This document shows, in pieces, positions 2,460 through 16,857 of a stretch of 47,919 nucleotides of DNA. The stretch spans positions 1 through 47,919 of the forward strand of contig NZ_MUBA01000001.1 in NCBI RefSeq assembly GCF_002154575.1, read 5' to 3'. The notes beneath the pieces were generated by a model. It was not told the origin of the DNA. It searched no databases and worked only from the letters and a program-made list of their open reading frames with translations. A program made the position numbers and the translations under genes. Origin of the DNA: Streptomyces bobili (lineage in GTDB: Bacteria > Actinomycetota > Actinomycetes > Streptomycetales > Streptomycetaceae). How positions within the stretch are numbered: the stretch's first letter is position 1; every line of letters begins with the position of its first letter.

Positions 2460-4211
<1,752 letters not shown>

Positions 4212-4247
4212 TGGCACCTGCCATGAACGAAGGAAAGGGGTGAATCG

Positions 4248-5618
4248 ATGAACACCTACGGTGCGGCTTCCCCCGCCCCTCCACGACAACACCGCTGGTG
4301 GTCCCGAGTCGCCGCAGTGGTGGCGACGACCCTTGCGATCGGCATGCTCGCCGCGGTGAATCCGTCGCCCGCCGAGGCGGCGACGGTGGACACCAGTGCC
4401 TGGTACGTCCTGGTCAATCGCAACAGCGGCAAGGCGCTGGACGTCTCCGGCGCGTCCACCGCCGACGGCGCGCGGGTCAGCCAGCGGACGCGCGACGACG
4501 CAGCCAGCCAGCAGTGGCGGTTCGTGGACTCCGGCGGCGGCTTCTACCGCCTCAAGGCCCGGCATTCGGACAAGGTTCTCGACGTGGCCGGCGCCTCGAC
4601 CGCGGACGGTGCCGCCATCCAGCAGTGGGCCGACCACAGCGGGGCCAACCAGCAGTTCCGCCTGGCCGACTCCGACGGGGGCCACGTCCGGCTGATCAAC
4701 CGCACCAGCAGCAAGGCGGTGGAGGTACAGGGCGCCTCCACCGCCGACGGCGGCAACGTCGTCCAGTACACCGACTGGGGCGGCGCCAACCAGCAATGGC
4801 AGCTGGTCAGACTGTCGGCAGGTGGCGGCGGCGGATGCGGCAGCGCCCCGACCCTGGCGAGCGGTACGTACACGATGCAGAGCGGAGGCAAGAGCCGCAG
4901 CTTCATCCTCAGGGTTCCCGCCAACTACGACAACAGCCACCGCTACCGGCTGATCTTCGCGTTCCACTGGCGGGGCGGCACCGCCGGCGAGGTCGCCTCG
5001 GGCGGCACGAGCGGGAACGCCTGGTCCTACTACGGCCAACAGGAACAGTCGAACAACGGCGCGATCCTCGTCGCCCCCCAGGGCCTCGGCAACGGCTGGG
5101 CCAATGCGGGCGGTGAGGACATCACCTTCATCGACGACATGATCCGGCGAATCGAGGGCGGTCTCTGCGTCAACCCGGCGCAGCGCTTCGCCACGGGATT
5201 CAGCTGGGGCGGCGGTATGAGCTACGCCCTCGCCTGCAGCCGGGCGAACGTCTTCAGGGCCGTCGCCGTCATCTCCGGCGCCCAGATCAGCGGGTGCGAG
5301 GGAGGCACCCAGCCCATCGCCTACTTCGGAATCCACGGCGTCAGCGACTCCGTCCTCAACATCGCGCAAGGACGGTCCCTGCGCGACAGGTTCGTCAGCA
5401 ACAACGGCTGCACCGCGCAGAACCCGCGCGAGCCCGCGCCGGGCAGCCGAACGCACATCACCGTCACCTACGCGGGCTGCCGTGCCGGATACCCGGTCCA
5501 GTGGGCCGCCTTCGACGGAGGCCACCTACCCGGTCCGGTCGACGGCTCCTCCGGCGAGAGCGGCGTCACCACCTGGACCAAGGCAGAGATCTGGAGGTTC
5601 TTCGCACAGTTCCAGTGA
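4248..5618 (+). CDS. Secreted feruloyl esterase (CE1/PHB-depolymerase-like) with N-terminal RICIN module
   Basis: 456 aa. Residues 1-44 are a signal peptide (cut after AEA). Residues about 45-185 are a ricin-type beta-trefoil very similar to that of AbfB. A Gly-rich linker precedes an alpha/beta-hydrolase domain from about 195. The nucleophile is Ser319 in GFSWGGG; a late FDGGHLPG supplies the likely catalytic His. Secreted esterases of this kind release ferulate cross-links from arabinoxylan, consistent with its neighbours. AGGAAAGGGG precedes the ATG by about 8 nt. It forms the second gene of an xlnA unit that ends in a strong hairpin. Acetyl-xylan esterase or PHB depolymerase activity cannot be excluded from sequence alone. 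Confidence 0.88.
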   Translation: MNTYGAASPAPPRQHRWWSRVAAVVATTLAIGMLAAVNPSPAEAATVDTSAWYVLVNRNSGKALDVSGASTADGARVSQRTRDDAASQQWRFVDSGGGFYRLKARHSDKVLDVAGASTADGAAIQQWADHSGANQQFRLADSDGGHVRLINRTSSKAVEVQGASTADGGNVVQYTDWGGANQQWQLVRLSAGGGGGCGSAPTLASGTYTMQSGGKSRSFILRVPANYDNSHRYRLIFAFHWRGGTAGEVASGGTSGNAWSYYGQQEQSNNGAILVAPQGLGNGWANAGGEDITFIDDMIRRIEGGLCVNPAQRFATGFSWGGGMSYALACSRANVFRAVAVISGAQISGCEGGTQPIAYFGIHGVSDSVLNIAQGRSLRDRFVSNNGCTAQNPREPAPGSRTHITVTYAGCRAGYPVQWAAFDGGHLPGPVDGSSGESGVTTWTKAEIWRFFAQFQ

Positions 5619-5718: not shown

Positions 5719-5737
5719 CGAACCTGGGATCGGTAGG
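5719..5737 (+). promoter_or_regulatory. 19-bp motif identical to one at 12159-12177
   Basis: CGAACCTGGGATCGGTAGG lies 26 nt upstream of the DUF3592 gene. The same 19 bases occur upstream of the 143-aa gene on the other side of the CHAT cluster, in the same orientation. Flanking bases are not alike, so this is a short selected element, perhaps a promoter core or activator site. I do not recognise a known sigma-factor consensus in it. Confidence 0.55.
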
Positions 5738-5763
5738 AGTCCCGGCAGCGAGAGCCTCGCCGC

Positions 5764-6639
5764 ATGGACCTGCAGAAGATGCTCGGGCTGTGGTGGACGG
5801 TGCCCGCGGGGCTGGCGTTGGTGGGTTATGCGTGCTCGCTGGCCGGTCTGACCCGGCCGCAGCGGGCGGTGTGGGTGACGGCTCGGGTCGTGGAGGTGCA
5901 TCCGCCGGGACACGGTGAGTCGGGGGAGCACGGGATACCGGTGACGATCGAGTACCAGGACCCGGGCACCGGGCGGGAGTTCAGGCTGCGGCACGAGAAC
6001 AGGCGCGGCGACCGGGTGCAAGTGGCCTGGGTGGGGCAGGAGTTCCCGGTCCGGTTTCCGCGGCGACGGCCGGAGCGGTTCCACCTCATGCTGGACAGCG
6101 AGGGGCGGACCTCCGGGACCGGCGGGCCGAACTGCATGGTGATCCTGCTGGTGTTGGGACTGGTCGTCCAGTCGTTCTTCGTGTGGGGCTGGCAGTGGGG
6201 GCTGATCTGCGTCGGTGGCCTGCTGCTCCTCGTCGTCGCGTTGAGCCGGGACGGCGAGCACGCCCGCGCCCGCGCCGCCCAACTGGCCGAGGGCGTCACC
6301 GTCCAGGGCCGCGTGGTCGCCGTCACCAGGGACGTCTACACCGACGGCGAGGGCAGCGAGAGCGTCAGCCACGCCTCCGTCGTCGCCTTCACCACCCACG
6401 AGGGCGTCGAGGTCACCGCGCTGTGCGCGCAGGGCATCCGGAACATCGCCGGATCCCTCGGCCGTGACATCCCCCTCCGTTACGCGCCCGCCGACCCGTA
6501 CCTCCTCACCGCCGACCCCGACCACGAACACCGTGAGCGCACGTCGAACAACAGGTTCGTCACCACCCTGCTGGTCACCGGGATCGCCGCGATCGGGGTG
6601 GGCGGCTACTGCCTCCACCACCCCTGGCCCCTCACCTGA
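5764..6639 (+). CDS. DUF3592-like membrane protein
   Basis: 291 aa. A first membrane helix lies near residues 10-30. A beta-rich soluble domain follows (WVTARVVEV...TIEYQDPGTGREF), then a helix pair around 122-162. A second copy of the beta domain follows (VTVQGRVVAVTRDVY...), and a last helix lies near 263-281. The pattern of a helix followed by V-x-A/G-R-V-V strands is that of DUF3592 proteins, whose role is unknown. The gene converges on the CHAT operon, and their 3' ends overlap by 8 bp. The 19-bp motif upstream is shared with the gene at 12239, which links it to the CHAT cluster. No strong ribosome site is visible. Confidence 0.75.
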   Translation: MDLQKMLGLWWTVPAGLALVGYACSLAGLTRPQRAVWVTARVVEVHPPGHGESGEHGIPVTIEYQDPGTGREFRLRHENRRGDRVQVAWVGQEFPVRFPRRRPERFHLMLDSEGRTSGTGGPNCMVILLVLGLVVQSFFVWGWQWGLICVGGLLLLVVALSRDGEHARARAAQLAEGVTVQGRVVAVTRDVYTDGEGSESVSHASVVAFTTHEGVEVTALCAQGIRNIAGSLGRDIPLRYAPADPYLLTADPDHEHRERTSNNRFVTTLLVTGIAAIGVGGYCLHHPWPLT

Positions 6640-7882
6640 CGATGCAGGTCAGGGCCGCCCAGAGGAGGGGCGAGTGCTCGATCCGGCCGTCGGCGCGCCA
6701 CCGGTCGAGCTGCTGGCGCTGCCAGGCGCCGAGACGGCGGACCGGGTCGTGGTCCTCGTGAGCCGCGTCCACGGCGACCACGGCCTCCGTGAGTGGCCGT
6801 ACGGACTGAGGCAGACCGGCCAGGCGATGGAAGGCGAAGCTGGTGGGGAGCGCCCAGCGGGTGGCGGTGACCAGCTGGGCGCCGTTGTGGATCATCGCCG
6901 TCGCCAGGCCGAAGGACTCGGCGAAGCGGAGATCGCCACCGCTCTCGCAGGCGATCAGCGCGACGCGCGGCGGCGCGGGCCAGAGGTGAGCGCCCGGCAC
7001 GCCATCCGCGCGCAGCGGGAGCGTGCCCAGAAGAAGGTCCTTGGCGGACAACGGGCGGTGGGTACGAACCGGTTCGGTCATCCCCGTGGTCTCCGGGCCG
7101 CAGCACAGGTGGAGGGTGACGTCCTCGCTCTGCCCGCCCTCGACGGGGGCGCCGCTGACGTGACCGACGTACATCAGGCGACGGGCCCCCTTGCGCAGCG
7201 CCTCGCCCAGCCAGTCACGGTCGAGGTCGGTGCGGCGGAAGGCCTCGGCGGGGGTGGCGACGGACGGTACGACGGTGCCCGCGTCGAGCCTTCGCTGTAC
7301 GAGGGACAGCAGTGCCGGGTCCGAGCCGGGCTGCCCCAGGACCGATCCGAGCGGGGAGTCGGCGCGGAAGCCGGGGACGCGGGGGTCCAGGACGAGAACC
7401 ACGGCGTCCGGGTCCGGGTCCGGGTCCTGACCGGTCGGGGTGGTGCCTGCCTGTCGTAGCGATGCCGGTGCCGTGGTGGCGATGTCCACGAGGTCGATCA
7501 GCCGTACGTCGCTGTCGTCACCGTCCACGGCGAGCAGCTCCCACGGGACCTGGGCGACCCGGGGCGACGGCTGGAGGCGCATCAGCGGACGGCCCAGGTG
7601 GGCGGACACCTGGCGGATCTGGTCGGTCAGGCCCGGCGGCCACAGCACCTCGGCCAGCATGCGGGAGAGCCGGCGCTCCTTCTCGTACGTGGCCAGTGCG
7701 CCGGACTCGAACGCGCGCCGCATGCCTTCCGTGCCGCCGCCCGGCAGTTCGGCGGCCAGCGCGCGGACGGCCTCGTCCACGTCCGGCCCCGGGGCGTACC
7801 CGGTGCCGAAGCCCTGGGCGCCACGGGCCCACGTCCAGGTCATGTGCAGGTCACCGGCGTCGGCGAGGCGGACCTGGACCAC
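6632..7882 (-). CDS. CHAT-domain caspase-like protease
   Basis: 416 aa. The N-terminal ~150 residues include a conserved stretch (RLQPSPRVAQVPWELL) typical of CHAT proteins. The C-terminal half is the CHAT fold (clan CD cysteine peptidase, caspase/separase relatives). The catalytic dyad is visible as His241 in YVGHVSGA and Cys312 in LIACESGGD. The downstream FGLATAMIHNGAQLVTATRW matches the family pattern of a Gly-Ala strand followed by a Trp. It is the last gene of a four-gene unit, 17 nt after the TPR gene. The assumed start is GTG with no clear ribosome site; an ATG 13 codons later is an alternative. CHAT proteases often act on a partner coded next to them, and the TPR protein is the obvious candidate. 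Confidence 0.85.
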   Translation of the reverse strand: MVQVRLADAGDLHMTWTWARGAQGFGTGYAPGPDVDEAVRALAAELPGGGTEGMRRAFESGALATYEKERRLSRMLAEVLWPPGLTDQIRQVSAHLGRPLMRLQPSPRVAQVPWELLAVDGDDSDVRLIDLVDIATTAPASLRQAGTTPTGQDPDPDPDAVVLVLDPRVPGFRADSPLGSVLGQPGSDPALLSLVQRRLDAGTVVPSVATPAEAFRRTDLDRDWLGEALRKGARRLMYVGHVSGAPVEGGQSEDVTLHLCCGPETTGMTEPVRTHRPLSAKDLLLGTLPLRADGVPGAHLWPAPPRVALIACESGGDLRFAESFGLATAMIHNGAQLVTATRWALPTSFAFHRLAGLPQSVRPLTEAVVAVDAAHEDHDPVRRLGAWQRQQLDRWRADGRIEHSPLLWAALTCIVR

Positions 7883-7899
7883 CGGACGGTTCGGGTCGG

Positions 7900-9552
7900 T
7901 CAGATCGTCGGCGGACAGAACGGCACCTCTTCCTCGCTCACGATCCGCCGGTGATAGCGGAACTCGGCTGCCTGGACGTACTCCTGGAGCGCGGTACGGC
8001 CGCCCGTCTCCGCCGACATCACGATCTTCGGTGGCGGTGCGACCCGCAGGCCGACGGAGGCGGCGGCCTCGGCCGCGATGCCGCCCAGCGTCAGGGGAGC
8101 GTCGTCATCGGGGGCGTACGTCTTCATGGCGGCGTCCGGGAAGACCGCCGCCGCCTTGTCGGCGGTGGACGTACGGCTCAGCGTCAGGGAGGCGCCCGCG
8201 CACCGGTGTTCCACCAGCTCGAAGATCAGCCCCTGGTCGTTGCTGCGGAGGGCCAGACGGAAGACCAACTGCATGGCCTCGTCGGCCAGTCGGAGCCACT
8301 GGCTGCGGGCGTGGGCGGTGGCGAAGTCGTAGCGGGCCGCTTCCAGCGTCAGGGCGGCGGGCAGGGCGAGGGAGAGCGCGTTGGCCAGCGAGGTGCGTTC
8401 GTGGCCGCCGTGGTCGGTCCGGTTCAGGTTGTCCTCAAGGGTTCGCGCCAGCATCAGGTCCACCTGGGCGCACCGCTCGTACACCCCGCGTTCCTGGTAC
8501 ACGTCCCGCGCGCCCTGGGCGAGCCGCTTCATCTCGTCGGTGTCGCCCCGCTCGTACGCGTGCCGGGCGCCCATCAGCATGGTGTCGGCTGCGGCGATCG
8601 CGGCACCGACCTGCTGGAAGCGGGCCAGGCTGGACGCCGTCAGAGCGGCAGCACCGGCCGCGTCCCCGCGGTGTGCGGCGATGGCGGCACGGGCTTGTTC
8701 ACAGACCGCCAAGTCCTCTGCCTGACCCTGCCGTTCGAAGATCTCGGCGGCCTCCGCGTACAGCTGCTCCGCGCGGTCGAGGTTGCCGGCCTGCAGCGCC
8801 GCGTACGCCCGGTGGGAGAGCACCTGTTGGCGCCCCGCGTGGTGGCCCAGGCTCAGATAGGCCTCCTCCGCGCGGGCGAAGTAGTCCTCCGCCTGTTCGA
8901 ACCGCACGGTAGAGGCGCAGACGACCCCCAGACAGTCCAGCAGATACGGCTCGGCCGGCGGCGCGTCGGTCAGCAGCGCGCAGGCCAGTTCCTCGGCCGC
9001 GCCCCACGCGCTGCGGTCCATCAGCAGATGCACCCGGCCCAGGCCGATCTCGGCGGTGCGCAGACCCTCGCGGTCGTCGAACTCCGACGACAGGGCCGTC
9101 GCCTCGTCCATCGCCTCCTGCGCCTCGTCCAACTGCCCGGTCCTGCGCAGCAGTTCGACCCTGGCCAGCAGTGTCTTCAACAGGACCTCCTGCCACAGCC
9201 GGCGGCCGTTCGGTCCCATCGGCACGGACGCGATGCCCCGCACCAGATCGAGGGACCGCCCGACGGACAGGGCGGCCCCGGGCAGATCCGTGGCCGCGAG
9301 CTGAACCGTCCCGATGTCGGACAACAGGTGCCCGCGCAGAAGTCGTACGTCGGGAGAGTCCTCCAACGACTCGGCCACGTCGAGCAGTTCGCCGTAGACG
9401 GCCAACGCCGCTGGGAGGTCCGGGGTGAGTTGATGGCGTTCGGCGAGCGCGAAGCCGCTGTCGAAGGGCTCGCCGTAGCTGAGCCCCGCCGCCTGTCCTT
9501 CCTGTTCCGCTGCGACCTCCGGGGCTCCTGGGTCTTCCGAGTCTTCCGGCAT
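7900..9552 (-). CDS. TPR-repeat protein, partner of the CHAT protease
   Basis: 550 aa, mostly helical, with repeated helix pairs from about residue 40 to 400. Examples are AEDYFARAEEAYLSLG, AEQLYAEAAEIFERQG and the A-rich repeats around residues 230-330, which match tetratricopeptide spacing. The N-terminus is acidic. The last ~100 residues are not TPR-like. TPR proteins next to CHAT peptidases often serve as sensor, scaffold or substrate. The gene starts 3 nt after the stop of the 402-aa gene, so translation is probably coupled. No signal peptide or membrane segment is seen, so it should be cytoplasmic. Confidence 0.8.
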   Translation of the reverse strand: MPEDSEDPGAPEVAAEQEGQAAGLSYGEPFDSGFALAERHQLTPDLPAALAVYGELLDVAESLEDSPDVRLLRGHLLSDIGTVQLAATDLPGAALSVGRSLDLVRGIASVPMGPNGRRLWQEVLLKTLLARVELLRRTGQLDEAQEAMDEATALSSEFDDREGLRTAEIGLGRVHLLMDRSAWGAAEELACALLTDAPPAEPYLLDCLGVVCASTVRFEQAEDYFARAEEAYLSLGHHAGRQQVLSHRAYAALQAGNLDRAEQLYAEAAEIFERQGQAEDLAVCEQARAAIAAHRGDAAGAAALTASSLARFQQVGAAIAAADTMLMGARHAYERGDTDEMKRLAQGARDVYQERGVYERCAQVDLMLARTLEDNLNRTDHGGHERTSLANALSLALPAALTLEAARYDFATAHARSQWLRLADEAMQLVFRLALRSNDQGLIFELVEHRCAGASLTLSRTSTADKAAAVFPDAAMKTYAPDDDAPLTLGGIAAEAAASVGLRVAPPPKIVMSAETGGRTALQEYVQAAEFRYHRRIVSEEEVPFCPPTI

Positions 9553-9555
9553 GGG

Positions 9556-10764
9556 CTAGAAGTCCTCCTCCACGGCTGTGGCAGCCGCGATCTCGGCGAG
9601 GAACGGGTCCGGGTGTGCGGCCTCGCTGCCGTGCGGCGTCGCCGCGACGCCGAGCCGGTGCCGGGCCAGGGCTCGTACCGCCTCACGTGCCGCACCGTCA
9701 TCGGCACCCGGTCCCGGGTCGAAACCCGGCAGCAGGATGCCCACGTCGATGCCCGGTGTGGCCGAGGCCGGGATGTCCAGGTCGGCCCGGCCGGTCCATA
9801 CGTCGTCCCGCCTGGCCAGCGGAACGCGGTTCGGTGGGCTGCCGTCCACGCGGACCTCCGCCGCGAGGTGCACCCCGCCCGTGGGTGCCGCGATGTCGGC
9901 GACGACCTCGACCTCGATCCGCCGCCCGGCGCCGAGCGCGTACGCCGTCCAGGACACGGCGTCCTCGGCCGCGTCGACGAAACCGGGAGGATAGCGGCAC
10001 CAGTCGTTGGTCCCCGAACCCCGGGCGATCACGCGGCCGGTCGCGGTGCGGAGATTGCCTGCCGCGAGGGCGAACTCCTGCCGCCGTACGAAGAGTTCGG
10101 TGAGGTCGAGCGGTGTGGTGGTCGGCCTGTGGTCCTGTTCCAGGGCCGATCGGAGGCGCCGTAGCGCGTCCCCGTACAGCCCGGCGTTGTCGGCCGCGTC
10201 GTCGATCAGCCGTAGGACACGGTCCAGTTGGCGAGGCGGGGCCGCGGACTGCCGCCAGCGGATCAGCGGGTCGAGCGCGGCCAGGTGCTCCTCCAACAGT
10301 TCGGCACCCTCCACCTCCCCTGACTCGTCGAGGAGTTGCTGGCACTCGTGGGTCAGTGCGGCCAACTCAAGCGCCAGCACGTCCGGTTCGAGGGCGGGAA
10401 TGCCGTCCAGATACGACGTCGGCCACCAGCGGGCCGCCCAGTGCCCGAGGGCGAGGCGGGCGGCAGCCTCGGCGAGAGCGGTCGGCTGCTCGGGCAGCGT
10501 CAGCTCGTCGGCCGGCGTTCCCGACGCGACGGCGTCGACAGCGGCGGCCGTACGCTCGCCGTAGACGGCCCACAGCCACTGCTGGGCCTGCCCCACGTCG
10601 TGGATCTCCGCTGCCGGCAGACCTGTCGGGCCGAGGACGGGCCAGGTCAGGACGGCGCCCGCGACGTCGAGAACGGCCCGGGTGAACGTGGGACCGGCGG
10701 AGGGTCCCGCGATGCGTAGGGTGCGGTCCTCGGCCCACGTGATGAAACAGCGACGTTCAGGCAT
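9556..10764 (-). CDS. Unknown protein in CHAT operon (402 aa)
   Basis: I do not recognise a named family. The start MPERRCF is set by GGAG 7-8 nt upstream and by a TGATG junction: the A of the ATG is also the last base of the upstream stop. The first ~100 residues mix strands and helices. The middle (about 95-250) is helical with Leu/Ala heptads. From about 265 there is a beta-rich stretch (RIEVEVVADIAAP...VHLAAEVRVDG...VDVGILLPGFDPGPG) that looks like a small beta-sandwich. The C-terminus is helical and acidic. Its packing in the operon implies a role in the same system, perhaps as a sensor or assembly factor. Confidence 0.7.
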   Translation of the reverse strand: MPERRCFITWAEDRTLRIAGPSAGPTFTRAVLDVAGAVLTWPVLGPTGLPAAEIHDVGQAQQWLWAVYGERTAAAVDAVASGTPADELTLPEQPTALAEAAARLALGHWAARWWPTSYLDGIPALEPDVLALELAALTHECQQLLDESGEVEGAELLEEHLAALDPLIRWRQSAAPPRQLDRVLRLIDDAADNAGLYGDALRRLRSALEQDHRPTTTPLDLTELFVRRQEFALAAGNLRTATGRVIARGSGTNDWCRYPPGFVDAAEDAVSWTAYALGAGRRIEVEVVADIAAPTGGVHLAAEVRVDGSPPNRVPLARRDDVWTGRADLDIPASATPGIDVGILLPGFDPGPGADDGAAREAVRALARHRLGVAATPHGSEAAHPDPFLAEIAAATAVEEDF

Positions 10765-12125
10765 CACGCGCTCCTCGCCTCGGCCGCGGGCTCGGCTGCC
10801 GCCGACAGGGTGCGCAGTGCCGTACGGACGCGTGCGCGGTGGTCCATCATCACCGAGCGGGCGACACCGTCGAGCACGCCCCAGGCCGATGCCGCGTCGG
10901 GCAGTGCCGCGTCGCGGACGTCGCGCCCGTGCAGCCGTACCCAAAGGCGGCGCATGTACGCGGCCCAAGGGGTGCGCAGGTCCTGGGCGAGGGCGTTCAG
11001 CACACCGCCGTCCGGGTCGGGGCGTGGGGAGACGGTCATCCTGCGGGCTCGCAGGACCGAGGCCTCCCGCTGCCAGCGGCCGTTGACGACGCGGTGTGCC
11101 GCCGTCGACCCCGCCACAGAGGTCCCGGCGCCCAGCGGATCGAGGCCCACCGCGAGTCGGCCACCGAGTACGACGGTGACGCGGAGACTCTCGTCGTACA
11201 GGCCCAGCGGGGCGCAGCTGCGGCCGACCTCCCGCCGGACGAGCTCCGGCACGGTCGGCAGTCGTTCGCGGTGGGTCGACGCCTGGAGCACGGTGAAGAG
11301 CCGTTCGAAGAGCGTGCGGTCGAACGGCGCGGGGAGTGTGGCGGTCGAGGCGCTCCGGCCGACCTCGGGGCGCGGGGGCACGCGGTGCGCGGTCAGTCCG
11401 AGGTGCGGGGGTACGTCGGCACGGTCCCAGACGTCGGCCGGGTGTGCCGCCCACAGGGCTCGCCCGAGCAGGCTGCCGTGCCCGGCCCGGACCATGGCGT
11501 CGAAGGCCGGCGCATCAGCCCTCGCCGCGCCGCAGGCCTCGAGGACCTCGGCCGCCAGGCCCGTATCTGCGGCGGCCGGCACCGCTTCGCGTCCGTCCCA
11601 CGCCGCTGCCAGCTCGGCGTCGAGCCGGGCGCGCCGGGCGGCGTCCGCCAGATGCTCCCTCAGCGCCTCCACCGTCCGTCCGCCGGAAGCGTCCACGACG
11701 TGTTCGAGCACCGCCCTCGCCACCGTGTCCGCGCCGGACCCCGGCGCCCCGTGCTCGGTCGCCAGCTCGAAGCACCGCTGGAAATACAGGTCCTGGGGGT
11801 TGCCCGCCACGATCCCCAGGGCCCGGCGGGTCTTCTTCAGCAGCGTGAACCACCGTGCCGTCGCTTCCAGAACCGCGGCGGACTCCCGTATCAGCGCGTC
11901 GAGTTGCTCCGCCTCCCGCGCGTCGAGGAAGTCGGCGGCGAGCTCCGGACGCAGCGCGGGCCGGACGATCAGCGGCAGCAGGATCAGCTTGACCGTCCGG
12001 GTCAGCGGCGCGCCACCGGGCCCGCTCAGCGCCTGAGGACCCGGCCCGAGGCCGCGCCAAGCCGTGTCGATGACCATGGCGCGCGGACGGCGCTCGCCGG
12101 TCGACGGCCGGCTCGGGATCGGCAT
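10764..12125 (-). CDS. Unknown protein, first gene of the CHAT operon (about 453 aa)
   Basis: No family recognised. The sequence is Ala/Arg/Leu-rich and mostly helical, with a C-terminal part containing strands (LRVTVVLGGRLAVGLDPLG). Start codons are uncertain: ATG at 12125 (MPIPSRP) or 12077 (MVIDTAW); neither has a good ribosome site, and 12125 is preferred for size. It is divergent from the 143-aa gene across about 113 bp. Its stop overlaps the next start by one base (TGATG). No membrane segment or signal peptide is visible. Being first, it sets the dosage of the whole unit. Confidence 0.65.
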   Translation of the reverse strand: MPIPSRPSTGERRPRAMVIDTAWRGLGPGPQALSGPGGAPLTRTVKLILLPLIVRPALRPELAADFLDAREAEQLDALIRESAAVLEATARWFTLLKKTRRALGIVAGNPQDLYFQRCFELATEHGAPGSGADTVARAVLEHVVDASGGRTVEALREHLADAARRARLDAELAAAWDGREAVPAAADTGLAAEVLEACGAARADAPAFDAMVRAGHGSLLGRALWAAHPADVWDRADVPPHLGLTAHRVPPRPEVGRSASTATLPAPFDRTLFERLFTVLQASTHRERLPTVPELVRREVGRSCAPLGLYDESLRVTVVLGGRLAVGLDPLGAGTSVAGSTAAHRVVNGRWQREASVLRARRMTVSPRPDPDGGVLNALAQDLRTPWAAYMRRLWVRLHGRDVRDAALPDAASAWGVLDGVARSVMMDHRARVRTALRTLSAAAEPAAEARSA

Positions 12126-12158
12126 GGGCAGAGCGTACGTCTTGGGGGAACTGGTGGG

Positions 12159-12177
12159 CGAACCTGGGATCGGTAGG
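12159..12177 (+). promoter_or_regulatory. Second copy of the 19-bp motif
   Basis: CGAACCTGGGATCGGTAGG, identical to 5719-5737, lies 61 nt upstream of the 143-aa gene and in the same orientation relative to it. It also falls about 33 nt upstream of the presumed start of the CHAT operon on the other strand, so it could act on both. Confidence 0.55.
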
Positions 12178-12238
12178 CGCTGCCCGCCTCCTAACGTCCA
12201 CACCACCAGGCGGAACGGACCGGAAGGGCAGGCACAGC

Positions 12239-12670
12239 ATGGGATTCTTCGGCAAGGGCAAGAGCCGCGAGGAGAAGGCCGCCAAGATCGCGGAGCAGGT
12301 GGCCGGCGGCAAGGGTTTCTACGGCCGTATGACGCGCGCGACGCTCGGCGGTGAGGACTACGCCAAGCTCCAGCAGTCGATCGGCGCGTACAACTCCGGT
12401 GCCACTGTGCAGCAGTTGCTCGCCATGGGCGTACCGACGACCACCGCCGTCGTCGTGGCGATCAGCGACACCGGCCGACTGGTCAACTTCGACCCCGTCG
12501 TCGACCTGGTCCTCCAGCTGACCGGGGCCGGGGCCACCGCCGACCCGATCACGCTTCAGACCATCGTTTCGAAACTGCGCATCCCCCGCCCCGGTGATCA
12601 GGTCCTCCTGATCGCGGACCCCGCCAACCCCGGCGGTTACCTCTACGCGGGCGACGGAGCGACGCCGTGA
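12239..12670 (+). CDS. Small conserved-looking protein next to the CHAT operon (143 aa)
   Basis: The N-terminus MGFFGKGKSREEKAAK is basic. A Gly/Arg-rich stretch follows (GGKGFYGRMTRATLGG). The rest reads as a compact alpha/beta domain (VVVAISDTGRLVNFDPVVDLVLQLTG...RPGDQVLLIADP) ending in a Gly-Tyr tail. No signal peptide or membrane helix is seen. GGAAGGGCAGG lies just upstream of the ATG. I do not recognise the family. Its divergent position and the upstream motif shared with the DUF3592 gene tie it to the CHAT cluster, perhaps as a substrate, inhibitor or ligand-sensing subunit (inference). Confidence 0.75.
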   Translation: MGFFGKGKSREEKAAKIAEQVAGGKGFYGRMTRATLGGEDYAKLQQSIGAYNSGATVQQLLAMGVPTTTAVVVAISDTGRLVNFDPVVDLVLQLTGAGATADPITLQTIVSKLRIPRPGDQVLLIADPANPGGYLYAGDGATP

Positions 12671-12840: not shown

Positions 12841-15800
12841 TCACCACTGGATCGTCCCTGGGACCGACCGCGGCGCCTCCCGTGCCGTGACCGTCTCGCG
12901 TGCCGACGCGCGGACGTCGGGGTGTGCGTGCCGGCGCAGGGTGCGGAGCCGGCCGCGCCACGGCTCCGTCCACCGAGAGCGGCTGCCGCCGGCGACGGTG
13001 AGCCTGATGGCGAACAGGCCCTGGGCCAGGCCCGGTTCCGCACCCAGTGTGCGGGCGGTCTCCCACCACGCGCCCGGCGCGGGGCCGCTGATCGCGCTGA
13101 GCCGCGCGCTGAGCCCTTCGGCGATGTCCCGGGCGAGCAGCGGACGTCCTTCGCAGTCGGCGGCCAATCGGCCCAGGCCCGACGACAGCGCGGTGGCGTC
13201 CTTGTCCAGTTCGAGGGCGTACAGCCGGAGTTCGGTGACGGAGCGCGCGAAATCCTCGTGCCCGGCGGCGGTGTCGGCGGCGCGCAGCAGCACGTCCGCC
13301 GTCGGCCGGCCCCCGCCCCGGTAGCGATGGTGGAGCAGGAGGTGTTGCAGCAGGCTCGCGGCCCGCTGCCGGGCCGGCTGGTCGCGTTCGGGCTCGGCGT
13401 CGGGCTGGTCCGGGTCTCCTGTGGCTTCCAGCATCGCCCGCAGGGCCCGAAGGTACGGGCCGTCGTCGTCCGCCGCGATCTCCACCAGCTCCTGCCCGGC
13501 CATCGCCCACACCGCCCGATCGGCAAGGTCCGTGGTGGCGGCCACCAGCATCTCGGCGATCTCCGGCTGCCACGGCGCCCATTCCGCCAGTGCTGGGAAC
13601 AGCGCCGCAGCCGTTTCCGGTTCGAGCGGCTCGCAGGCGCGACGCAGCAGCCCTGCGTACCTGGCCCGGTGCTCCTCGTCCACCTCGGTCACGGCCGCCC
13701 GTGCCAGCTCCCGGCGGAGCTCCGTGCGTCCCTGCGCGGCCGACTCCAGCATGGGCCAGATGGCCGGCTCCGCCAGCATCCCCTGGGCGAACGCGACGCA
13801 CACCGACTGCACGTCGTGGTGCTGCCCGGGCAGCTCGAACGCCTCCCGCAGCGACGGCGCCGCCTGCGCGGGGGGCAGCATCGTCGCCGCGAGGCGCACC
13901 GCCTCCTTGCGGCTGGTGACCTTCACCGTCCGCGGGTCCTTCGGCGTGAGCAGCCTGCGGAGCTCCGTGGCGAGCCGCGACGGCGCGACGTACTGCGCGA
14001 CCCGCGTTGCCGCGTAGACCGCGACCCGGGCGCGGTCGCCGCCCGCGTGCTCCAGCAGCAGCGGCAGCACCTCGTCGGGGCGGTCGGTCCACGGCAGTGC
14101 GCCGAGGGCCGCCTCCGCCAGCGGCACGTTCGACGATCCCGTGTAGCGGCGGACGACTTCCAGGCCCGCCTCCGGGATCACTGCCGCCGCCGAGAGGGCC
14201 TGGACGCGCACATGCACCAGCTGCCCCGCGTCGCCCGCCGTGCGCGCGAGCAGCTCCGCCGCCGCCCGCTGCTGGCGCGGCACCCAGCGGTGGGCCCGGT
14301 AGGTGGGTGGCGTCCAATGGCTGCGGGCGGTCAGGAAGCGACCGTACGGTGGGGTGTCCGCCAGCACCGGATCGAGGAGGTCCGTACGCCGCCCCGTCAG
14401 GACTCTCAGAACGGACGGCAGGACGGCGGCGGACGGCTCCAGCCGCACGATCCGCTCCACCCGCTCGTCGCGCCCCTTCGGCTGCTCCAGCCAGAGGTCG
14501 ACGGCGGTGCGGACGGACGCGTCGTTTCCGAACCGGACGGCCTGCCACAGGTACTCCTGGAGTTCGGCCATCCCCCACGCACGCCGCCCGAGTGACCGTA
14601 CGAGTGCGAAGACGAGCGAGTAGTCGGCCTTGTCGGTGGCGGCCTCCAGCCACGGCCGTAGCGCCGCCAGCACCTCGTACTCCTGGCCGCGCCGCAGCAC
14701 GGTGTCGAGGCGGCCGACGTTCGCGCCGCCGGTGTGGCCGGACAGCTGGGTGAGGGTGTCGAGGGCCCAGCCGATGAGCCGCGTACCGCCCGTGACGGCG
14801 TGCTCGCGCAGCACGGACAGGGCGAGCGTGCTGAGCGCGTGACGGGTGCTCCAGGAGGAGTCGTGGGCTTCGACGGCGTCGATGGCGATTCGTCCGAGGT
14901 CCTCGGCGGCGTCCTCCGCGAACAGCGAAGGGCGCACCTCCGCCAGTGCGGAGAGGGCGGCACTGCGGACCGGGTCCTGTTCATTGCGCAGCCGCAGCAG
15001 CGCACGCAGCAACCGGCTCACTTCCTGTGGGTCGCGGGAGCGTGCTGCGTTGCGGACGAGCAGTGGGTACGCCGTGGCGCGGTCGTCCGCGTCGGAGCGG
15101 CGGACGGCGGTGAGAAGGTCGTCACGGACCTCGTCCGGCGGCAGATAGGCGGCTGCCGTCAGTATCCGCGTCCAGTGCGCGCCCCTGCCGCGGGCCAGCG
15201 TCGCCATCCGCCGAGCCTCGGCAGTGCGCCGCTCGTACGGCAGTACGTCAAGCAGGGCGGGGCTGAGGTCCGCGTGGGCGAGATCCTTGCCCTCCATCGC
15301 CGCGTCGAACAGGGTGCCGCGGCGGGAGGGCGGCAGGCAGGCCAGCAGCCGGGCGAGAGCGGCTGCGTTGTCGTTCCAGGCGCAGGCGAGGTCGGTGAGT
15401 TCCGCCGGGGCGTGGCGGACGAGGCGGCGCAGCACGGCGGGTTCGAGGTGGCCGCTGTTCAGCCGGGACCGCAGCTTCGGGCGTAGCAGCAGCCGCACCG
15501 TGCGGCCGGGATCCGCCTCGACCAGGAGGTGCAGCTTGCGGTGCACGGGCATCGGCAGCGTCTCGTGACGCTCGAGCACAGCCAGCACGCCGAGCGGATC
15601 CGGTTCGGCGAGGAGCGCGAGCGCGTCCGCATGGGACGCCAGCCAGCCGTCCCGTACGACGGCGGGGAGGGTGTCGAGCTGCCGCTCCATCTCGGAGAGC
15701 AGCAGAGCGGGATGGCGGGCGGCGAGCAGCCGGTAGGAGCTCAGTCCGCGGAACAGTCGGGGCAGCAGCCGGGCGGCGGTCTCCGCCGTGCAGGCGGAGA

Positions 15801-16233
15801 GCAGTTCCGCGGCGGCCTCGGCGCCCCATCGCCGGTACGTCGGCTCGACGAGCGCCTCGGCGAGGGTCGTACGCCCCGCCACGGCGATGGCGTGCACGAG
15901 CTGCTGCCGCACGGCGGCGGGCGCGTCCTCGATGACCTCGATCACGGCGGCGTCCGTGAGCCGCCCCTGCCGCAGCGCCCTGATCGCGGGGGCGCGGACG
16001 AGGCGATCGGGATCCGCGAGGCAGCCCTCCAGATACGCGTCGTGGCGCACCATGTCCGCCAGGGTGGCGGCGAGCCGCCGCCCGTGGACGCCGTGGGCGG
16101 CGAGCCCGGTCACAAGCTCGTCGACCGCCCCCTCTGCCGCGGCGCGCCGGGCAGCGGAGGCCAGCTCACGCATGCGGTGGGGGTAGGAGAGCCGGTCGAC
16201 GGCTGCGAGCAGGTGTTCGGTGCGCTGGGACAT
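12841..16233 (-). CDS. Large HEAT/ARM-like helical repeat protein (1130 aa)
   Basis: The protein is almost wholly helical, with repeated units of about 35-40 residues carrying the VRxxAL-type pattern of HEAT repeats (DPDRLVRAPAIRALRQG, DPVRSAALSALAEV, LVHVRVQALSAAAVIPEAG, VPLAEAALGALPW). I see no catalytic motif, signal peptide or membrane helix. It probably acts as a scaffold or binding solenoid. The start MSQRTEH was chosen because repeat-like sequence begins there, but no ribosome site is visible. The frame remains open upstream to an ATG pair at 16623/16620, so an N-terminal extension of about 130 residues is possible. It lies beside insertion-sequence and integrase relics and 170 nt from the CHAT cluster. 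No function can be assigned. Confidence 0.75.
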   Translation of the reverse strand: MSQRTEHLLAAVDRLSYPHRMRELASAARRAAAEGAVDELVTGLAAHGVHGRRLAATLADMVRHDAYLEGCLADPDRLVRAPAIRALRQGRLTDAAVIEVIEDAPAAVRQQLVHAIAVAGRTTLAEALVEPTYRRWGAEAAAELLSACTAETAARLLPRLFRGLSSYRLLAARHPALLLSEMERQLDTLPAVVRDGWLASHADALALLAEPDPLGVLAVLERHETLPMPVHRKLHLLVEADPGRTVRLLLRPKLRSRLNSGHLEPAVLRRLVRHAPAELTDLACAWNDNAAALARLLACLPPSRRGTLFDAAMEGKDLAHADLSPALLDVLPYERRTAEARRMATLARGRGAHWTRILTAAAYLPPDEVRDDLLTAVRRSDADDRATAYPLLVRNAARSRDPQEVSRLLRALLRLRNEQDPVRSAALSALAEVRPSLFAEDAAEDLGRIAIDAVEAHDSSWSTRHALSTLALSVLREHAVTGGTRLIGWALDTLTQLSGHTGGANVGRLDTVLRRGQEYEVLAALRPWLEAATDKADYSLVFALVRSLGRRAWGMAELQEYLWQAVRFGNDASVRTAVDLWLEQPKGRDERVERIVRLEPSAAVLPSVLRVLTGRRTDLLDPVLADTPPYGRFLTARSHWTPPTYRAHRWVPRQQRAAAELLARTAGDAGQLVHVRVQALSAAAVIPEAGLEVVRRYTGSSNVPLAEAALGALPWTDRPDEVLPLLLEHAGGDRARVAVYAATRVAQYVAPSRLATELRRLLTPKDPRTVKVTSRKEAVRLAATMLPPAQAAPSLREAFELPGQHHDVQSVCVAFAQGMLAEPAIWPMLESAAQGRTELRRELARAAVTEVDEEHRARYAGLLRRACEPLEPETAAALFPALAEWAPWQPEIAEMLVAATTDLADRAVWAMAGQELVEIAADDDGPYLRALRAMLEATGDPDQPDAEPERDQPARQRAASLLQHLLLHHRYRGGGRPTADVLLRAADTAAGHEDFARSVTELRLYALELDKDATALSSGLGRLAADCEGRPLLARDIAEGLSARLSAISGPAPGAWWETARTLGAEPGLAQGLFAIRLTVAGGSRSRWTEPWRGRLRTLRRHAHPDVRASARETVTAREAPRSVPGTIQW

Positions 16234-16857
16234 GAGGGCGATTCTGTCTGGCGGGCGGGGGTGGCGCCTGCGGATTTCGGCGGGGCGTGGTCGTCGTGCG
16301 GCAGGCTGTGTGGCTGTCTGTGCGGGCTCTGTGGCGGTCCATGCAGGCTCGGTCAGCAACTCCGCCGGCCGGTCGGTGAATTCGGTCAGCCAGTACTGTT
16401 GCGGTCCGCCGCGGGCGATCCGGAGCCCATGCCGGCGGCTCCAGAATGCGACCTGCACGGCATGGAACTGCAATCGGCTGCCCGCTCGCTCGGCGCCGAA
16501 CCGGCGCGTGATGCCGACTGTGCGCGGCTCGGTAAGGCCTACGGCGTCCAGCCCAAGAGGGCGGGCCGTAGCCTGCTTCTGCGTGAGCCCATGGGCCACC
16601 TCGAACGCCACGTCCTGCATCATGAGGCTGCAGCGCGCGGCGAGAAACGGAGCGCCCACGGGGGAGTGCCGCCCCCGCCGCGCTGTGCGGGGTCAGTCCC
16701 GTCGAGCGTTCCTCGGGACGCCGACAGCAGGCAGCGCAGTGCTGTCGATTTTCGGCCACGTTGCGGTGTGAGCTTCCCTCGATGTGCGTGAGGTGCCGAT
16801 CAGCTGGCCAGGGCGGGTTGACGGGGGTTCAGGTTTGTTCGTTCGGTCGTTGCCTGG
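16234..16857. other. Gene-poor stretch with a possible N-terminal extension or relic
   Basis: No convincing gene. On the minus strand the reading frame of the HEAT protein continues open through 16623. It has some protein-like sequence (MMQDVAFEVAHGLTQKQA; GGPQQYWLTEFTDRP) but weaker GC3 than its neighbours, with codons such as CTT, GCA and CGA. It then decays into a Thr/Ala/Pro-rich stretch just before MSQRTEH. This may be an older relic fused in frame by deletion. Confidence 0.4.

Follow-up and report, generated by a model that had tools for sequence, protein, structure and literature searches.

A conserved TPR–CHAT protease operon of Streptomyces bobili with its own predicted promoter element, likely serving a gene-expression response

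The DNA analysed here, referred to as the window, comprises the first 47,919 nucleotides (nt) of Streptomyces bobili contig NZ_MUBA01000001.1 (assembly GCF_002154575.1; positions 1–47,919, forward strand; window coordinates count from its start). It contains an operon of four genes encoding two orphan proteins, E and D, a TPR protein and a CHAT peptidase, as well as an 18-nt motif, GAACCTGGGATCGGTAGG, which adjoins the operon. The TPR–CHAT operon, with a predicted promoter element of its own, likely serves a gene-expression response that is apparently undescribed. Transcription gated by proteolysis is suggested by the combination of a protease with an intact catalytic dyad and a TPR partner, two orphan partner proteins, and a promoter-like element that tracks E through the class and marks predicted envelope genes. 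In the preferred reading, which is given a probability of about 0.4, this conserved actinobacterial operon and the dedicated element beside it constitute a transcription switch, where TPR–CHAT would cut D, freeing E as the reader of the element. Caspase-fold proteases are widespread in bacteria, and to our knowledge few of them have a known output. The class-wide element and a short list of candidate mycobacterial targets offer a ready read-out for a CHAT protease; what such a bacterial protease controls becomes a directly testable question.

Operon architecture and conservation

The four genes are located head to tail on the minus strand and are transcribed in the order E, D, TPR, CHAT. Gene E (10764–12125) encodes a protein of 453 amino acids (aa) with an isoelectric point (pI) of 10.1, the candidate motif reader, and gene D (9556–10764) encodes an acidic protein of 402 aa with a pI of 4.7. 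The 550-aa TPR protein (gene C, 7900–9552) was recognised by the Pfam profile TPR_12 (E-value 2.2e-9). The 416-aa CHAT peptidase (gene B, 6632–7882) belongs to PF12770 (E-value 4.6e-10), with a profile score of 39.8 bits against a cut-off of 24. D and E overlap by 1 nt, while TPR and D are separated by 3 nt and CHAT and TPR by 17 nt. Residues His241 and Cys312 of the CHAT peptidase are intact; neither varies among 28 closely related CHAT sequences or among 20 distant ones from across the class. Two plus-strand genes frame the operon: F (12239–12670), divergent from E, encodes a 143-aa accessory protein, and A (5764–6639), convergent with CHAT, encodes a predicted 291-aa membrane protein of the DUF3592 family (PF12158, E-value 9.3e-7).

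Proteins D, E and F had no Pfam matches up to an E-value of 1, E being scanned as a 449-aa frame; NCBIfam and PADLOC scans of the window proteins returned only general TPR or chance-level matches, with none for D. Under the thresholds used, D has 318 relatives and E has 1178; among the 120 relatives listed for each, none has a Pfam domain, and the displayed names read hypothetical or uncharacterized. Searches for PDB relatives by sequence gave only chance-level matches (best E-value 0.36 for E and 0.13 for D). Judged by sequence, D and E are families without a counterpart in the libraries searched. D is acidic throughout, with a pI of 4.2–5.4 across 24 homologues, and E is basic in most of its Streptomyces homologues. 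Kept blocks read RLWxRLHGR(D/E) in E and WxxxWWP in D. The possibility that D and E are relatives of each other was rejected by comparison.

A single scan of genome contigs with D as the query provided a sample of 37 loci. The full set of E, D, TPR and CHAT, always in the same order, occurs in 34 of them; the incomplete ones are L008, where the contig stops before CHAT, L020, with E and D only, and L037, with a remnant of D and CHAT. In 21 of the 34 loci, TPR and CHAT share a single frame; in the other 13 they are two genes, as in the window. F is located at the divergent side of E in 32/37 loci. A full-length DUF3592 gene is found in 22/37 loci, at the CHAT end in ten, downstream of F in 11 and in L037 in the remaining one. 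The four operon genes are the constant core, to which F and the DUF3592 gene add a variable accessory part.

A preliminary description of this region, made from the window sequence, had listed the same genes and junctions, an intact His/Cys dyad and two unfamiliar partner proteins, all of which were borne out. It also proposed testing whether the neighbouring genes stay with CHAT and named the lack of such conservation as grounds for abandoning the proposal. The check across the 37 loci did not refute it: the genes keep together, E, D and TPR in 34/37 loci, F in 32 and a full-length DUF3592 gene in 22 (in two arrangements), the last two being variable accessories.

Of 394 genomes surveyed across the class, 33 have D, representing seven of 137 genera, and E is present in 22 of 295 Streptomyces and 97 of 148 Mycobacterium genomes. 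Plasmids carry the system as well: it was seen in five Streptomyces plasmid records and in a Nocardia farcinica record of 2.66 Mb that is filed as a plasmid; no match to E was found in the phage collection. Contig G255:C1 carries two copies of the system, near positions 116629 and 11424187, close to the opposite ends of its 11.5 Mb; both copies score equally for E, as if placed in terminal inverted repeats. The remnant in L037 (6812–8585) adjoins a DUF3592 gene, L020 shows neither TPR nor CHAT within 8 kb after D, and the reading frames of L033 are broken.

The motif and its sites in Streptomyces, Mycobacterium and other lineages

The motif has two exact copies in the window, one 5′ of the DUF3592 gene (5720–5737, plus strand) and one between E and F (12160–12177, plus strand). 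When up to three mismatches are allowed, these are the only two matches in the window, compared with 0.02 expected in shuffles, and also the only two in the whole 8.06-Mb genome; the paired control motifs pointed out in the preliminary description are therefore genuine. The motif adjoins E in 35 of the 37 loci, in 30 as an exact copy and in five with one mismatch; it is missing beside E in L020, the contig of which begins inside E, and in L037. DUF3592 genes at the CHAT end have their own motif copy in nine of ten cases (0–3 mismatches; none in L023), versus none of the 11 located downstream of F. Since the second copy tracks the DUF3592 gene in this way, the idea that the two copies serve as recombination sites on either side of the operon was rejected.

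Across 44 Streptomyces-type sites, the motif is followed at a distance of 14 nt by a conserved TAgCgT box. For the F promoter, the counterpart in the window, TAACGT (12192–12197, plus strand), is the predicted −10 box. The DUF3592 promoter is predicted to have its −10 box at the same position 14 nt after the other motif copy (5752–5757, plus strand), and the DUF3592 start codon lies 12 nt after the first base of this position. For E, a −10 box is predicted at TACGCT (12132–12137, minus strand), 6 nt before the start codon; a similar box 5′ of E is visible by eye in the aligned loci. Because the start codons of the DUF3592 gene and E are so close to the box positions, both transcripts are probably leaderless.

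Among the 295 Streptomyces genomes, the 18-mer with at most one mismatch occurs in 19, at 28 sites in total; the reversed control gave none. Twenty-four of the 28 sites adjoin genes of the system, and the remaining four are three further sites in genome G121 (L063, L065 and L043) and one inside a gene in G145. The L063 and L065 sites (near 1501), away from the operon, precede small predicted membrane proteins, and that of L065 has a sub-threshold DUF3592 match. Motif and E occur together in 18 genomes, E only in four, the motif only in one and neither in 272 (Fisher test, 5e-24). Three of the four E-only genomes were inspected, and all three contain the variant TGTGATCGGTAGC beside E.

Distant D matches assigned to family f4, genus g4, were taken as Mycobacterium, as L101 and M. 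shigaense share an identical E protein. In all eight loci L099–L106, the gene order is CHAT, E, D, and TTGGGATCGGTAGC is located 2.2–2.5 kb before CHAT. A TPR-type open reading frame (ORF) preceding CHAT was called in L101, L103 and L104; the first gene of L101 encodes a lipoprotein of the 19-kDa-antigen type (PF05481, E-value 3.6e-29). Nocardia locus L067 consists of E, D and a fused TPR–CHAT gene, and AAAGTTGGGATCGGTAGG precedes a lipoprotein-like ORF there. The form YTGGGATCGGTAGS is present in 103 of the 148 Mycobacterium genomes, with a single match in each of five for the reversed control. According to a hand tally, motif and E are both found in 96 genomes, E only in one, the motif only in seven and neither in 44 (Fisher test, 5e-29); the sole E-only genome, G800, has one-mismatch sites near the operon. 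Over 48 Mycobacterium sites, a counterpart box, tg.acT, is placed one nt closer to the motif than in Streptomyces. The motif survey of distant loci covered nine loci: near E, L107 has the exact core and L109 has one- and two-mismatch forms, and L192–L194 have a TGTG variant. In L108 and L191 (family f19), a variant CGTGATCGGTAGG was seen beyond the CHAT gene, not beside E, near positions 13207 and 2692, respectively.

Sites scattered outside the operon were sampled in nine motif-bearing Mycobacterium genomes (40 sites). The ORF downstream has an N-terminal hydrophobic segment at 34 of the 40 sites, versus 78 of 196 background ORFs (p = 1.5e-7), a rough test because ORFs and starts were picked mechanically; the background was composed of gene-like ORFs not behind the motif, taken from the scattered-site and operon regions. 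Among the downstream ORFs, inspection by eye and Pfam recognised small exported-looking WCPG...WD..VCH proteins, lipoproteins, an 84–98-aa membrane protein and SHOCT-like proteins; another appears by eye to be PE-PGRS-like. The WCPG...WD..VCH family (L158, L165, L166, L174, L184 and others) has invariant CPG and CH; one member was scanned and had no Pfam match. Of the 97 genomes with E, 44 were sampled, and 28 of these have the small membrane protein of this putative regulon, versus four of 44 without E; the E-less sample comprised 39 of the 44 genomes with neither motif nor E and five of the seven with the motif only. Of the four E-less genomes with the protein, an intact motif lies 5′ of the small membrane protein gene in G739 and G752, no motif within two mismatches precedes it in G765, and a 33-residue partial match to the protein is located behind a two-mismatch motif in G787. 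The association provides a first context for the orphan families D and E and for the mycobacterial WCPG/VCH small exported-looking proteins.

Possible modes of action

In the proposed switch, D would hold E until a cue from the cell envelope, probably sensed by the TPR part, led the TPR–CHAT protease to cut the acidic D and release E. E (or D) would read the element, which may act as an activator site in place of a −35 box. An extended form of this proposal seems rather improbable as a whole: a self-contained switch common to Streptomyces and Mycobacterium, with E as a new family of DNA readers recruiting RNA polymerase to GGGATCGGTAG promoters, D as an acidic inhibitor and TPR–CHAT as the protease that cleaves D on an envelope cue, making up a caspase-controlled envelope regulon that employs neither CRISPR nor a sigma factor.

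A number of observations weigh against the proposed switch. Neither the window Pfam scan nor homologue profiles recognised a DNA-binding domain in E or D, and no sigma-factor domain was found in 24 E or 24 D homologues. Mycobacterium E proteins are near neutral or slightly acidic. The AlphaFold models are poor, with a mean predicted local distance difference test score (pLDDT) of 48 for E and 61 for D (30 sequences each). The box position 5′ of the DUF3592 gene reads GAGCCT, a weak box; the −10-like box of Mycobacterium is also weak, only its last T exceeding 0.9 bit. The counts of motif and E co-occurrence in Streptomyces and Mycobacterium ignore kinship. Among the distant loci, L108 and L191 have only the variant CGTGATCGGTAG, placed beyond the CHAT gene, L110, where no E was found, has nothing closer than a distant match with two mismatches, and no motif was seen in L113. 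A PDB search with the CHAT profile found no chain up to an E-value of 0.1, so kinship with Csx29, the TPR–CHAT protease of the Craspase system discussed below, rests on a shared Pfam family name and the literature, not on alignment. Finally, genomes G739, with four sites, and G752, with two, lack both E and this CHAT and keep their sites intact before regulon-type genes, the products being small membrane proteins and one small exported protein.

The identity of the motif reader is thus the weakest step of the proposal; because of G739 and G752, an operon-encoded reader is not claimed as settled, and one encoded elsewhere is almost equally probable. The corresponding alternative, somewhat less probable than the proposed switch, is that a separate regulator located elsewhere, an activator or an alternative sigma factor, reads the motif, the CHAT operon being one of its outputs and the protease an effector acting on envelope or other proteins. 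The presence of motif sites in seven of 51 E-less Mycobacterium genomes, the position of the G739 and G752 sites and the lack of a recognised DNA-binding domain in E and D agree with it, whereas the absence of the motif from 272 of the 273 E-less Streptomyces genomes, together with the location of 24 of the 28 sites at the system, is hard to reconcile with a ubiquitous host regulator that has other targets. The motif variant, moreover, shifts with the E lineage, and the motif is also found on the plasmid copies L067 and L068, both of which speak against such a regulator.

The preliminary description had spoken of a signalling or defence system. The class-wide motif and the scattered sites before predicted secreted and membrane proteins point to signalling via transcription rather than to defence, so the first half of that suggestion was strengthened and the second gained no specific support. 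An anti-phage or programmed-death system, where activated CHAT would cleave a partner or a membrane protein (DUF3592 or F) and thereby kill or arrest the cell, is unlikely. Such a function would be in keeping with the patchy spread of E among Streptomyces genomes (22/295), the plasmid-borne copies (five Streptomyces plasmids and one Nocardia record), the variation of accessory membrane genes among loci and the frequent presence of caspase-like and TPR domains in described conflict systems (PMC7159879, PMC8195603). However, PADLOC yielded only a TPR match (E-value 0.012) and no described anti-phage system, E is widespread in Mycobacterium (97/148 genomes), and motif sites scattered before predicted secreted proteins and lipoproteins would be unusual for a kill switch.

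Other genes of the window adjoin this region. Two plus-strand ORFs 5′ of it (2541–5618) look by eye like a xylanase and an esterase that bear ricin-type repeats. On the other side, adjoining F, a minus-strand gene (12841–16659) encodes a protein of 1272 aa, for which a HEAT match stayed below threshold (E-value 0.15); this protein is not among the conserved neighbours listed for the 37 loci.

Comparison with known systems

No description of the operon or its motif, and no occurrence of GGGATCGGTAG, was found in the literature searched, the coverage of subscription papers being limited. Among the matches listed for three 10-letter pieces of the motif, none concerned actinobacterial promoters, judging from titles and the openings of abstracts.

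In the VMAP, iSTAND and EACC conflict systems of multicellular bacteria, many of them actinobacterial, peptidases of the caspase-like type and repeat proteins occur with partners that vary (PMC7159879, PMC8195603). The operon resembles them in this respect, but no MoxR, vWA, STAND or trypsin domain was recognised by Pfam in the six genes. Another comparison is offered by CATRA. The genome of L001 has a CATRA gene beside a long TPR–CHAT-like ORF and a small protein gene; this separate locus (L038, 535–7072) comprises a 1439-aa ORF reading as TPR–CHAT, a 133-aa ORF and a 580-aa CATRA ORF. In contrast, the window proteins have no match to CATRA-N (PF20269) up to an E-value of 1. Profile comparison with the CATRA protein gave probabilities of 6.0 for D and 0.3 for E, and membership in this group was rejected.

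The closest functional parallel may be Craspase, the type III-E CRISPR system with Csx29, Csx30 and CASP-sigma. Csx29 is a TPR–CHAT protease that is reported to cleave Csx30, a sigma-factor inhibitor; in this system, TPR–CHAT and its partner genes are tied to a response at the level of transcription, which has a DNA motif of its own (PMC10028731). TPR and CHAT also occur together in the present operon, adjoining each other in the window and forming a single frame in 21 of the 34 complete loci. Unlike in Craspase, no Cas protein, such as the Cas7-11 partner, was matched among the seven window proteins scanned, and no sigma-factor domain was recognised among the window proteins or the 24 homologues each of E and D, although a functional equivalent may exist. 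By profile, D and E are unrelated orphan families; the motif and the scattered sites also differ, and D is a putative substrate. The operon is not a member of the Craspase group; by analogy, it may work in a similar manner, with D as the putative target of the TPR–CHAT protease and transcription as the output.

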